A stretch of 64,000 nucleotides of DNA, taken from contig KN832555.1 of the NCBI GenBank assembly GCA_000827205.1, positions 533,151 to 597,150 on the forward strand, read 5' to 3'. This stretch comes from Plicaturopsis crispa FD-325 SS-3. Taxonomy: Eukaryota > Basidiomycota > Agaricomycetes > Amylocorticiales > Amylocorticiaceae. Position 1 is the stretch's first letter. Every line of letters begins with the position of its first letter. This document shows positions 1 through 32,683 of this stretch, one piece after another. Below the pieces are notes generated by a model, which was given only the letters and a program-made list of their open reading frames with translations, made no database searches and was not told the origin of the DNA. The position numbers and the translations under genes were made by a program.

Positions 1-1477
1 CGCGGGGCGTGTAGGCGTCGACGCCAGTGGTGGGCGCTGCCGCTGGGGTCCGCTGGATGGTGCTGGTGCTGGTGCTGTGCATCGCTGGCGCTGTCGTCTG
101 AAAACCGTCGGTTAGCGCTCGAACTAACGGTTAAAAAGCAAGAAAAAAGACTTACTAACTGATAAAAACGAAAAAAGAGCACCCCCTGCAAAGTAGCAGG
201 GGGTGGGTCGGCGGCGTTGCGTGGAACGTCGTTGGCGACGTGGACGACGACGAGGAGAAACAGAATCAACAGCGACGACGCGTTGATTCTGATTTCAAAC
301 TCCGCCGGCTTTCGCCGCGGAGGCGCGCCACAGCGTCGAAATCGATTTATATGGCTTCAAATTGCAGCCATTCAGTCTGGTAAAATTTGAGGGTGTCCAG
401 AGACTCTATACTACGATGTACACAAAGTTTAAATTTTTTTCACCGAGGGGAATTGAGTAAATTAGCGAAAGAGCGTCAAATTTGAGACTTTCTGCTACTT
501 TTGAGTGAAAATCTGGCAGATTCACTTGTTCCCCCTCGTTTTTGGACTTTGAAAAAATTATATTCGGATTCAGCGACCTAAAAAACACCCAGAACAGAAT
601 TTAAGATAGGGAGCGGGCAAGTGTGCCCATCTCAGTAGCGGAAAGGACGCTGGAAGCACCAGATTCGAGCATTTCGGTCGTTCCGGAATGCACGATTCAG
701 AGGCAAAAAAAGTCGTTTGGTGCTCTGGAGATGGGCACATCACGAATTTTTTTACAGCAAGCTCAAGGGGCATGTATTAGCATACCCTGAGCATGAATAT
801 ATTTTTTTCAACGAGAAATATCGCGAGGGGATTCATTGCGAAGCGAGTTACTGCGTAGCCGCCCACCATGTTGCGATAAGTTGCGATAATCTTGGATCTA
901 TCAGTCTATATACTTGTCTCTGTGCAACGAAAAAATCTGTAAATATTTTGGTGGTGCCTAAGGGTATTTACGAGCAAATTCGCTCTATTACACGAAGGAG
1001 AACGACCTAGTATTGGTGGAGAACGAGGCCACCGACGAGCTAAGCGCTCGCGCGCCACCGCGCGCACGGACCAGCGGAGCTCGGAACCGTTCCCAATCGA
1101 GGAATTGGTTCGTTTTTCTTTTTTTCTTCGTTCCTCCCACCATCTCCCCCGTTGTCGCTGCCCTCTTGCACGCCGTCGTCGTCGTCGTCGACGACGACGA
1201 ATCCTGGAGCTCACGGGCCCAGGTAAGTAATCAATTCTTTTTATCTTCTTTTCTCCCCGTTGCCGCGCGTCGTATGAGAAGCCCGACCCTGGGCAGCAGA
1301 AAGCGCGCGGCAACGCTCTTTTTCTTTTTCTTTCTTTCTACTGACCAGCGGCGCTGCGCGCCGGCGCGAATCCCCAGCAGACCACGACCGGCGGCGCGAC
1401 CCCGTCGACACTGGCCACACCACGCGCGGCACAACCGGGGGGCCGGTGCCAGCGCATAACCACCACCACTACCCCCT
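1..1477. other. Gene-poor left edge, no supported gene
   Basis: I see no credible gene here. Open frames of 60-156 codons occur on both strands but are low-complexity (poly-Arg, poly-Ala, poly-His) or lack any recognisable domain. A perfect 9-bp inverted repeat lies at 181-189 and 196-204 with a 6-base loop. A second short inverted repeat (CGGTTAG / CTAACGG) lies near 109-130. Bases 360-1000 are AT-richer than the flanks. From about 1000 the sequence becomes C/T-rich and leads into the minisatellite. Confidence 0.6.
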
Positions 1478-19679: not shown

Positions 19680-22600
19680 ATGTTGTAAGTGTCCAATCTT
19701 GCTCTTGACCGCCATCATCTCCCTCTAAATTTCCCTTTCCCCCGTCTCCGTAGCCCCAATAATGGCCAGCAGAACCGGTCCCAGCTCGGTCAACCGCAGT
19801 CCGGGGCGCCCCCCACATTCAACATGCAGTCGCCTTCTACCCCGCATAGTGCAGGCTTCGATCCAGGATCTTCTCAGTTTCATCTCGACTCCTCCTTAGC
19901 AAAGCAGATGGCTGCGCTTAATGCGGCCAACTTATCCCGGATTGCAAACAACCGCCCGCCAGCTACGCCCCTAGCAGGCGGCGGAACAAGCTCGGGACCA
20001 TTTCTCGGAGGAATGCCATCGATTAACCCGTCCAACGGTCTCCCAACCGGCCAGGACGGTGCTCGTGCTGGCCCGCATTCGAACTTTCAGGCACCGCAAC
20101 AACAACACCAGCAACAACACCAACATCACAATGTCAACCCCGTCACCAACGCTCCATTCCCCGGTGCCCACCCCTCGTCCCAGCCGAATCCCGCGATGCA
20201 GGGCAGCCAGCAGTACAAACAGAGGCAGCGCAACTTCCTTACCGGGCTCGCCAATACCATGAGCTCGCGAAATATGCCTCTACCGCCCAATCTGACAGGT
20301 GTCCCTTATCCCAACGGTTACGATCCCTCAAACTCACCGTGGAAGAACCTCGAGCTGTCCACGAACGATATTGGTGCCATTCGGCTGGCGGGGCGTGACC
20401 TTGACTTGTTCAAGCTTTGGGGAACGGTGTTCCAAAACGGAGGCGGTCGAAGTGTATGTCTCCACAAAGTTGACGAGTCGTGGTCGTTCTAACATCCTCC
20501 GTTGCAGCTTTCGCAACACGACACTTGGGGTGACATGCTGAAGCAATTTGATCTTCCCGAATACATGCCCTCGCCACAATCAAACGGGCAAACCTCTACC
20601 GCAGTCGTCCTGGCCCAATACTACAACGCCTTGCTCCAGCCGTTCGAAGATGCTTACAAGCGGAACATCGCAGACCAGCAGCGGAGGGCCGCAGCTGCCG
20701 CGCAACAGCAGGCTGGAAACCAGGCTCCACCGCCTGCACCAGGACCCTCAGGTCAGGTGCGGCCCCCACAGCCAGGAGGACCCATGAACCACAATATGCC
20801 GGCGCCAAACCGCATGCCCAACCCGTCTAATATGATGGGCATGGGTGGGCAGCCAGGTCCTCCGCCGCAACACCCACAGCACTTTCCACAGCCACCGGTG
20901 AACGGTGCAGTACCGATTCCACCGAGCCCATCGCTGGCGAATACGCCGCAGATGCGGCCCTCGTCGAGCATGAACATGCGCCAGTCCCAGCACAATACGC
21001 CGCAGAGCATTGCGCGCGCGCCGTCTATGGAGAGCATGCCGTCGTCGAACGGGCAAGCGCAGGGTCCACCTTTCGAAAGGAATGTCCTTGACCGAGACGC
21101 TCAAGGCATCAAGCGCAAAAACGAAACGGAGGATGAGGATAGCAAAAGGACGCGCCAGAAAACAGGTATGTTTTTATTCTTTGTTATAGTTGGTCTTGCG
21201 TCTGAGCAAGCGTTCCCATTCAGCAGAATCCGAGCCCTCTTCGGTTAGTGCCACAGTCCTTCCGTGAATGACTTTGTTTCAACCGTGTACTTATGTCCCT
21301 ACTTTAGTCGACGTCAGGGACGGATCGCAATTCTGTGCAGCCAGCCGCAGCCAGCGCCACACCAGCGCGCTCCCGCCCGCGTATCCAGCCATCACGGCGA
21401 AAGATCGAATACGTACCGCTAGCGAGGGAAATGGACACATATGGCGGGCGCGACTTGCGCGCGATAGAAGAGGAGAGGGCGCACCTCGCCCAGCGCCGGC
21501 CGCTCCGCGACATCAACGACTGGGGCACCGTCGACATCGAGGCGCTGACCATGTCAATACGATCGAGGCTCTCCACGGAACTATCGTACGCACTGACGAC
21601 GTTCACGCTGCTCTCGACTATGCGTGGGCAGACTGAAGGTTCGGGGTTCCCGATATTCCAGTGTCCAGATCTGCTTGATGAATTGCTCGACCTGCTCGAG
21701 GATGAAGCGTTTGATGGCGACGCTGATGTTGCAGAGACGCCGTTATCCGACGACGCGTACATCGTTACGCATCGGGACCTTCTCAACACGGTGCGAGACG
21801 AGGAGAGTCAACCCTTCGCGAGTCTAGAGCAACGGCAAGGCGTGAAGAATCCGGATCTGGGGCCAAAGCAGCGGCGGGGCAACATCATCCTGGCCGTTTC
21901 CAATATCCTCCGCAACTTATCCATCATCGAGGACAATTCACAGTTCCTTGCACGACATCCCAGGATGCTAGACCTCCTACTGCGCACATGCAGGACCGTG
22001 GGCGAGAGGGGCGGACCACCGCGGGCGGTGGCACCTATGCTTTCCTTGACAGACTTGATCACCATCCGGAAGGACGCGCTCTCCATCATTATTAACGTTG
22101 GAGCCCATATTCGATTTCCCTCGCCCGCCGCGCCATCCGCAGATACCCTGAGGCTCGCAAACCGGATGTTCGAGCTCATCGCGTCGTTCCTGGTCGACCC
22201 CACCGATTCTGTATCTCCTGTCGCGTGGCTAAAGCAAGTTGGGCTACCCAGTAGCGGGATACTCAAGCCCCCGTCGTCCTGCGACGTCGCATTGGAGGCG
22301 TTCACCAGGCTCGCCCAACTGGACTCGAATCGCCAGGTGCTGTCGAAGGCGATCTCGCAAGCGCGGTTGTGGCAGCTCTTTGAGGCCCTCGTGCACCGAT
22401 TACCCATCGTCGAGAATGACTATCAGTTGCTAGGTCAGGAGCCGTGGCTCAGCTACCTCGAGAAGAACGTCATGGCGCTATACTCCCTCGCGTTCCTCGC
22501 GCCGCCGGACTTGAAGGCGAAGATTAAAACGGACCGCAGCCTCAGCTTCTGCCGCGTGGTGATCCGGATGGTGCAGAAGTGCCTTGTGTACAACGGCGCG

Positions 22601-30817: not shown

Positions 30818-31144
30818 CATGTATGACTGTTATAGTTCAGAATGGAACCTAGTTGTATACAGAGTTTACCGCCTTGGGGCATCCGAGTGGAGTGCACGAA
30901 ACATGTTTACATTTGTACGTTGACCCACAAAATGTGCCTACGACAAGTACGACACCAGGGGGCCGCCATGCACAAGCGCAAGCACTTTGGCTGTCGAAGA
31001 CGAATGTGTAGATGAGAGTAAAGGAATCCCTTGCTTCATTTGCGGCGCATCTCCTCCACATCAACTGATGGGAGTAAGCTGGACCGCAAAGAGAAGAAGG
31101 GAGATCCCTCGACGACGCAAGCCAGTGGTGTAACAGCAGGGTCA
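30818..31144. other. 3' flank of hydrolase and of U2 gene
   Basis: Space between the plus-strand hydrolase stop and the 3' end of the minus-strand U2 gene. No gene is supported. The U2 RNA may extend into its upper part. Confidence 0.4.
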
Positions 31145-31378
31145 TCATGTCCTCGTCGTGCAAGCAGAGGACAAGGAGCAAGGGCGTCAAAAATAACATA
31201 ACCAAGAACGGAGGCGGTGCCTCCATTATAGTGGTTAAACTGAAAAACACGAAAGAGAGGTGTTCAGTAAAGAGGATCTCTGGCGGGCTTGAACGCCCGC
31301 CTTTTGGCTTACTTGACGTACCTATAAAGAACAGATACTACACTTGATCTAAGCCAGGTGGCCCGAGTGGTGAAGGAT
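31145..31378 (-). ncRNA. U2: U2 spliceosomal snRNA gene with a predicted 82-nt intron in stem IIa
   Basis: Reading the minus strand from about 31378, a stem I region is followed by GGCTTAGATCAAGTG (31356-31342) and the branch-site recognition sequence GTAGTA (31341-31336) within a stretch identical to the universal U2 block through CTGTTCTT. A candidate intron follows: donor GTACGT at 31321, branch-like TTACTGAAC at 31270-31262, pyrimidine tract and TTTCAG ending at 31240. Removing it joins TTATAG to TTTAACCACTATAA, a perfect 6-bp stem IIa with an 8-nt loop like that of other U2 RNAs. Next come stem IIb (GGAGGC / GCCTCC, 31224-31210), the Sm site ATTTTTG (31194-31188) and a 7-bp hairpin 31173-31149 with TTGCA in its loop. 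The 3' end is uncertain. Mature RNA would be about 150 nt or slightly more. Introns in snRNA genes are known in some basidiomycete yeasts. Confidence 0.85.
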
Positions 31379-31398: not shown

Positions 31399-31406
31399 TT
31401 TTTATA
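31399..31406 (-). promoter_or_regulatory. TATA box of the U2 gene
   Basis: TATAAAAA on the minus strand, its first base 28 bases upstream of the predicted 5' end at 31378, the usual distance for an RNA polymerase II TATA box. It supports the chosen 5' end. Confidence 0.6.
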
Positions 31407-31721: not shown

Positions 31722-32683
31722 ATGGACGACGACGAGGACCCCATCGTCAGTGTACTGCCCATTCGCTACTCCAATACACTTGCCCCACATGTCCAGATAC
31801 ACCAGTTTCCACTCCTAACACGGCCTCTCCAGGCGCCACCGTCCGCAACATTGAGCGGCAAACGCATTCGCGCACGAATCAAGCCGGGCGTGCGCAGAAT
31901 CGAAGTCCATGTGCCCGCGGACACTCGTCCTGAGGTGTGGAATGTAGAGAGGGGGAAGGAGCTAGGCGCGGCACGGGTGGAGGATGATAGAGAGAAAAAT
32001 CAGGATCTCGGAAAGGCCAAGCAGAGGGAGGGCGAGGAGCCAAGGCTCGCGGAGGTGCGCATGCGCAGCGAGGAGATCCCGCAGAAAGGGACTCATATGC
32101 TTGGTATCGTCCGAGATGGTGTGTTCGATCCTTACAGAACAAAGTGCAGAAACTGACGTGAAGACTTAGGGCAACTGCATCTACACCCGATCAGCGAAAC
32201 GCATCAGCTACGGCCGACGCTAACCTACTTGGACATCCTGTCACGGAAAAATAAACGCTCGAGGGGCGGAGGTGCCGGCTCGGACTCGGACTCAGATGAC
32301 GGCCCTCCACCCGATCCAGACGAGCCTGCCCCAGCCCCTGTAGCCAAGAAGGAGAAGAAGGCTGCCGGGGAGGCTAAGGAGGTTCAAGTGTCTGCGCGAA
32401 AAATAGACGACAAAGCTGGCATGCAGCAGGGGCTCTCTTCAGTGCGACGGGAGATTCTGCAAGCCATACGGTCGGAAGAGGACGAGAATTGGCAGGATCT
32501 TGAGTTTTGCGATGGAGAGGTCAGCCTACCGTTCTTCGCACTACGCTGCCTGGCTAACCAGATATTGTTCGACAGACTGAAGAATCCGGTGTATCATTTG
32601 AAAGCGTTTTCTCGAAAAACGAGGAGCCGCTTGATTGTACGACAGAACTTACAACGTTTTTGAAGGACATCCGTGGCTTATAA
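31722..32683 (+). CDS. RPC37: RNA polymerase III subunit RPC5/Rpc37
   Basis: Three exons, 31722-32118, 32170-32519 and 32576-32683, give 284 residues. The start MDDDEDPIVSVLPIRYSNTL, then HVQIHQFPLLTRPLQAP, RIKPGVRRIEVHVPADT and EVWNVERGKELG match the N-terminal dimerisation region of Rpc37 (RPC5, Sin-like), which pairs with Rpc53 in the TFIIF-like part of RNA polymerase III and acts in termination and reinitiation. A linker with acidic and Ala/Lys-rich segments follows. The end SVFSKNEEPLDCTTELTTFL with KDIRGL is the conserved tail. The last intron (56 nt) has its acceptor at GACAG after a GGCTAACC branch site. The gene starts about 340 bases from the U2 gene, which is divergently transcribed. 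Confidence 0.85.

Follow-up and report, generated by a model that had tools for sequence, protein, structure and literature searches.

A U2 snRNA gene of Plicaturopsis crispa with a very likely spliceosomal intron where the 5' arm of stem IIa meets its loop

The U2 locus and its surroundings

The DNA analysed here, hereafter the window, is a stretch of 64,000 nucleotides from the agaricomycete Plicaturopsis crispa FD-325 SS-3 (assembly GCA_000827205.1, contig KN832555.1, positions 533,151 to 597,150 of the forward strand), and coordinates are counted from its first base. We identified one U2 snRNA in the window, on the minus strand at 31373-31103, with a score of 74.1 bits against a gathering threshold of 46 for the Rfam model RF00004 (E 9.6e-13). 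The match spans the whole model, 1-192, and the alignment places an extra stretch inside the stem IIa loop as an insert. A first-pass annotation, made from the letters alone, had placed a U2 gene at 31145-31378 and called for a search of the spliced and unspliced sequence with the Rfam model. The search of the unspliced locus does find U2 there and above the threshold, and the gene extends further downstream, to 31103. Its 5' end is 31373 by Rfam and perhaps 31378 in truth. The parts of the locus are as follows.

31401-31406, minus: TATAAA box, 28-33 nt ahead of the 5' end of U2; putative promoter element by its position
31322-31373, minus: U2 exon 1, with stem I, the branch-site recognition sequence and the 5' arm of stem IIa (Rfam RF00004)
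31336-31341, minus: GTAGTA, with which U2 recognises the branch site (sequence)
31322-31327, minus: 5' arm of stem IIa, TTATAG (Rfam, pairing)
31240-31321, minus: putative 82-nt spliceosomal-type intron, GTACGT...TTTCAG (splice signals, excision tests)
31282-31301, minus: perfect 7-bp G+C hairpin within the intron, GGCGGGC/GCCCGCC (sequence, hairpin scan)
31264, minus: presumed branch A, within TTACTGAAC and 24 nt from the intron end, 5/6 to RCTRAY
31103-31239, minus: U2 exon 2, with the loop and 3' arm of stem IIa, stem IIb, the Sm site and stems III and IV (Rfam RF00004)
31232-31239, minus: loop of stem IIa, TTTAACCA, which holds the 5' strand of stem IIc, TAACCA, at 31237-31232 (sequence, pairing)
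31226-31231, minus: 3' arm of stem IIa, CTATAA (pairing)
31210-31224, minus: stem IIb, GGAGGC-ACC-GCCTCC, 6 bp (Rfam, sequence)
31199-31204, minus: 3' strand of the 6-bp stem IIc, TGGTTA (pairing)
31188-31194, minus: Sm-type site, ATTTTTG (sequence)

The core of the gene, GATCAAGTGTAGTATCTGTTCTT, includes GTAGTA at 31341-31336, on the minus strand as had been claimed, and has the same letters in three of the U2 loci used for comparison below (L002-L004), all of which were fetched with 19 of these bases. Exon 1 ends with TTATAG at 31322 and exon 2 starts with TTTAACCA-CTATAA at 31239, in agreement with the 82-base separation of U2 pieces in the first-pass annotation. Subtracting these 82 bases from the gene length of 271 leaves 189.

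An RPC5 homologue, a subunit of RNA polymerase III, lies at 31722-32660 on the plus strand and is divergent to U2; its ATG is about 350 bp from the U2 5' end, so that a single intergenic region is common to both genes. Elsewhere in the window, Pfam reports a DUF6589 domain above its cut-off (35.5 bits) together with weak gag-protease and F-box matches below theirs, and ARAGORN finds no tRNA genes. DUF6589 is linked to the Agaricomycetes, and these matches, along with the short introns of the window, fit a fungus of that group. The window also holds 583 N bases, which points to a gapped or masked assembly.

Splice signals and the position of the cut

The extra segment begins with the donor AG/GTACGT and closes with the acceptor CAG, its end reading TTTTTCAG, in keeping with the GTRNGT and YAG of U2-type introns. 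A branch-like ACTGA lies inside it with 24 nt after its last A, and 13 of the 15 bases before the final AG are pyrimidines. GTACGT, the branch motif TTACTGAAC at 20-30 bases from the end (24 nt), the pyrimidine tract and TTTCAG had all been listed in the first-pass annotation, and all are present. One point against the intron reading is the branch site itself: ACTGAA agrees with RCTRAY at five of six positions and has an A in place of the pyrimidine. RCTRAY, with the pyrimidine last, is the fungal branch-site consensus in PMC5832005; the site is expected 6-36 nt from the acceptor. The hairpin at 31282-31301 would bring the 5' splice site and the branch site closer together.

Three introns in protein-coding genes of the window provide a local standard.

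20454-20507: ARID intron, 54 nt; Pfam score rises from 27.1 to 48.7 bits on joining
32119-32169, plus: RPC5 intron, 51 nt; Pfam score rises from 28.1 to 72.4 bits on joining, a gain for which the added first exon itself accounts in part
61757-61661: PEX11 intron, 97 nt; Pfam score rises from 57.3 to 63.0 bits on joining, a small gain

The joining of open reading frames from which they come is noisy, yielding 29 candidates against 18 and 7 with two false motifs; ten candidates were joined, and the three used here are those that were trimmed by eye and run against Pfam. The 54-, 51- and 97-nt introns have the donors GTATGT, GTGTGT and GTATGT, the branch motifs CTAAC, CTGAC and CTGAC and the acceptors CAG, TAG and TAG, respectively. 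The U2 segment is like them in length and in type of signal and differs in its branch site, CTGAA; its pyrimidine fraction is 0.87 against 0.67, 0.47 and 0.53 in the three.

We also gauged how often such signals occur in the window. GTRNGT and YAG at a spacing of exactly 82 nt are found at 8 of 128,000 strand positions, and the further demand for CTRA at 9-36 nt before the end and a pyrimidine share of 70% or more leaves one, the U2 segment; at any length from 45 to 110 nt, 13 start-and-length combinations fit, and these counts gauge rarity rather than a look required of introns here, since the thresholds were chosen post hoc with the segment already known and 0/3 of the supported window introns reach 70% pyrimidine. 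Exon 1 and the intron both end in AG, so that three alternative cuts (registers 57-59) leave an identical product, and by the window's own frequencies the chance for one of three equivalent cuts to have GTRNGT and YAG is about 1.6e-4.

Two tests independent of the splice sites bear on the place of the cut. In the structure test, the 5' arm, the 8-nt loop and the 3' arm were held fixed, which sets the length to 82, and the outcome therefore bears on register only: 18 registers are possible, and 11 of them give all six pairs of stem IIa. Three of these 11 leave TTTAACCA as the loop, and the GT...AG cut is among them; two further full-pairing registers yield GTTAACCA, keeping the TTAA common to all four aligned U2s, and the remaining six alter TTAA. 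Removal of 31321-31240 gives a stem IIa with six of six Watson-Crick pairs and the loop TTTAACCA, so the perfect 6-bp stem that had been predicted on removal is obtained.

A sequence profile built from four U2s (described below) was used to score 2475 excisions, with splice sites ignored. The GT-AG cut scores 37.8 bits, compared with 26.8 for the best domain of the unspliced sequence, and is the best of the ten excisions that begin with GT and end with AG, while 39 of the 2475 score above it. The top four count against it: they are 82-nt cuts shifted by 4-7 nt and reach 44.9 bits, and a cut at one of these places would put the start of the removed segment further upstream and leave the mature U2 with a usual-looking TTTTCAG arm, by way of non-GT-AG splicing or of slippage after a duplication. 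The profile prefers these registers because the intron end TTTTTCAG resembles the usual arm of the other U2s (TTATCAG). The shifted registers pair four of six positions in stem IIa, against six of six, and are without GT-AG ends, and the 3' arm CTATAA complements TTATAG, not TTTCAG; one 81-nt cut that was examined, at 43.0 bits, pairs three of six. We regard a shifted cut as exceedingly improbable and retain the GT-AG cut in what follows.

Some other origins were considered for the segment. A group I or group II intron finds no Rfam match at the gathering threshold in the window, and 82 nt is too short for either. An origin by duplication is suggested by the likeness of TTTTTCAG to the usual U2 arm, but the same letters are equally an ordinary 3' splice site, and the likeness decides nothing. 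Copies of the intron elsewhere in the window amount to chance 10-11-mers, with no sign of an introner family within the window, and the direct repeats around the gene are 10-11 nt long, in two copies each, and chance-like.

Comparison with other U2 RNAs

For comparison, GTDB contigs were scanned with an exact 19-base stretch of the U2 core, which returned five loci, L001-L005. Rfam recognises a U2 in four of the five (172.1, 131.6, 120.2 and 93.8 bits) and none in L001. Three of these four U2s are cut at the end of a record or stretch, and L004 and L005 lie on the same contig; the profile used all four, whereas the pair count used three, L005 being omitted as cut short and on the same contig as L004. 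The comparison leaves out a further, partial copy of the U2 core at 770-788 (minus) of L004. The GTDB records are labelled as bacterial metagenome-assembled genomes, and Rfam finds U2 in L002, L003 and L004/L005, U1 in L002 and L004, and 5S rRNA and histone 3' stem-loops in L002; with this content, the contigs look eukaryotic. An exact search for the U2 core in IMG/VR gave no match.

Both alternative stems of the U2 switch region are kept in P. crispa, and both with paired change. Three of the six pairs of stem IIa differ on both sides from those of L002, L003 and L004, and 24 of 24 cells are paired across the alignment. Sliding the partner strand by one to three columns leaves 29-50% paired. 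The observed pairing is matched by 11 of 500 shuffles, and on the number of pair types by 37 of 500, figures that are not probabilities, since the covariation comes from four aligned sequences, one row of which carries the double changes. Stem IIc is TAACCA/TGGTTA here, TTAATAT/ATATTAA in L002 and TTAATATC/GATATTAA in L004; in L003, no uninterrupted helix exceeds 6 bp, and the helix of that length is less regular. The retention of IIa and IIc, each with paired change, argues against a decayed copy.

The insertion site corresponds to the position after base 52 of the L002 U2 and is unbroken in the comparator U2s. Table 2 of PMC5040776 gives Pleurotus ostreatus four U2 loci, all 191 bp long, close to the 189 nt of the P. 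crispa gene after removal of the intron. The uninterrupted site and the length of the Pleurotus loci together suggest that the intron was probably gained in the lineage of this fungus, although the comparators are not fungal relatives able to date the gain.

Taken on its sequence, the locus is very likely a real U2 gene interrupted by one 82-nt U2-type (GT-AG) spliceosomal intron at the junction of the arm and loop of stem IIa. The first-pass annotation had put a spliceosomal intron inside stem IIa. The intron is well supported by its signals, by the restoration of IIa and by the paired changes, while its place is, more precisely, the point where the 5' arm ends and the loop begins.

Folding, possible self-dependence and related introns

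With the insert, the stem IIa loop grows from 8 to 90 nt, and both arms stay intact. The idea that the intron breaks a stem needed by the active RNA thus holds in part: both arms are whole and could pair in principle, but the modelled unspliced RNA rarely pairs them. When stem IIb is enforced in folding, IIc is predicted to be favoured over IIa by 1.5-2.0 kcal/mol in the spliced RNA, which is near balance, and by 11.3-15.2 kcal/mol in the unspliced RNA. Inserts with shuffled bases act alike (8.9 +/- 3.1 kcal/mol, n = 200), so the effect on folding comes from the site and length of the insert and not from this particular intron. In the predicted unspliced fold, TGGCTTA of stem I (31356-31350) pairs with TAAGCCA of the intron (31311-31305), both on the minus strand, and the 5' splice site pairs with GTATC, which overlaps the branch-recognition sequence; either pairing may be due to chance.

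Stems IIa and IIc are mutually exclusive; in the account of PMC8516221, SF3B proteins stabilise IIa, which is observed in the A complex, and IIc forms in spliceosomes activated for catalysis and in U2 free of protein. Cus2 aids U2 into the IIa form ahead of prespliceosome formation, according to a passage in PMC6633205. Two other readings of the locus were weighed. In one, the IIa loop has been enlarged by the 82 nt in this lineage, and mature U2 keeps them. The intact arms can pair around a 90-nt loop, as they do in the Rfam alignment, and a 7-bp hairpin lies within the insert. On the other hand, the insert has exact GT-AG boundaries, a branch-like site and a pyrimidine tract, IIa is predicted to be 11-15 kcal/mol worse than IIc in an RNA that retains it, and in known snRNPs the IIa loop docks on SF3B proteins (PMC8516221, in part), where 90 nt should do harm. 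We consider a retained expansion very unlikely.

A silent or minor copy is the other reading, either a U2 pseudogene or one of several genes that carries the insert while intact copies supply U2. Several U2 loci are possible in fungi, as the four of P. ostreatus in the table of PMC5040776 illustrate, and the Rfam score is modest at 74.1 bits, compared with 172.1, 131.6 and 120.2 for L002-L004. Against this, the core, the Sm site and all three stems of the region (IIa, IIb and IIc) are preserved and show paired changes instead of decay, a TATA box stands at 28-33 nt upstream, and splice signals are found at both ends of the insert. We think this reading very unlikely as well. A functional intron-bearing copy alongside intact ones would be compatible with the best explanation, and only the silent version is a rival to it.

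If the gene is indeed split by a functional intron, its expression may proceed as follows. The TATA promoter would lead to transcription by RNA polymerase II, and spliceosomes already furnished with mature U2 would remove the intron and ligate UUAUAG to UUUAACCACUAUAA, as the signals and the structure suggest. Splicing would allow the arms of IIa to meet across the 8-nt loop. Before splicing, the modelled precursor would be in the alternative IIc fold, all parts of which are in exon 2, and the unspliced U2 would be unfit for prespliceosome assembly; splicing by mature U2 would then license U2. Since the parts of IIc lie wholly in exon 2 and IIa is made from both exons, the precursor would be kept in IIc and only spliced U2 would take the IIa form. 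That splicing serves as such a fold licence, with the precursor held in IIc, spliced U2 alone reaching IIa and the supply of U2 under its own positive feedback, is a tentative model, possible but on the doubtful side. From the GT-AG type of the intron, U2 should be needed to splice its own precursor, as the first-pass annotation proposed. If the fold-licence model is true, fewer mature U2 snRNPs would mean fewer new ones, and if this were the only U2 gene, the loss of the last working spliceosome would be the loss of the ability to make another.

Introns in snRNA genes are already known but rare, and one U2 is among them. Rhodotorula hasegawae, a basidiomycete of another subphylum, reportedly has a 60-bp U2 intron directly downstream of the branch-recognition sequence. 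By that account, it shares with the present case an mRNA-type, short intron in the conserved 5' half of U2 in a basidiomycete, and differs from the 82 bp found here at the IIa arm/loop junction in its length and position. The mRNA-type intron in the R. hasegawae U2 snRNA gene was described by Takahashi et al. 1993, as a reference entry in PMC2586383 records. Among the matches listed from the open-licence literature, none describes a U2 gene of an Agaricomycete as split by an intron, and, as far as these tell, what is new here is the lineage and, if the Rhodotorula site is as reported, the position. The introns of U6 are likewise spliceosomal introns in a gene for an RNA required in splicing. 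U6 is a polymerase III transcript at the catalytic centre, in contrast to U2 and the IIa/IIc switch in which the present intron sits. U6 snRNA introns are well known from Schizosaccharomyces and other fungi (cited in PMC5832005). The same source reports introns in 138 of 310 fungal U3 snoRNA genes, ordinary GT-AG and nearly all in the 5' stem-loop (Canzler et al. 2017, PMC5832005); they are widespread across Basidiomycota and average 92 nt. U3 introns thus resemble the present one as ordinary GT-AG introns in a structured non-coding RNA, but U3 acts outside the spliceosome and, unlike U2, is free of self-dependence.

Introns in the genes of spliceosomal RNAs offer a natural test both of intron gain, one possible route being reverse splicing into an snRNA that sits in the spliceosome, and of the ways in which a machine may rely on what it has itself produced. 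U2 makes for a sharp case, as its intron should require U2 for removal and sits in the IIa/IIc switch, a position that would make U2 splicing and folding one testable event. The locus is also a warning for annotation: snRNA genes can be split, which may partly explain failed similarity searches. In PMC5040776, a BLASTn search recovered no U1 snRNA from Pleurotus, Agaricus, Coprinopsis, Schizophyllum and other basidiomycete assemblies, and split, intron-bearing U1 genes would be, as a guess, one possible reason for the missing U1 in those assemblies.
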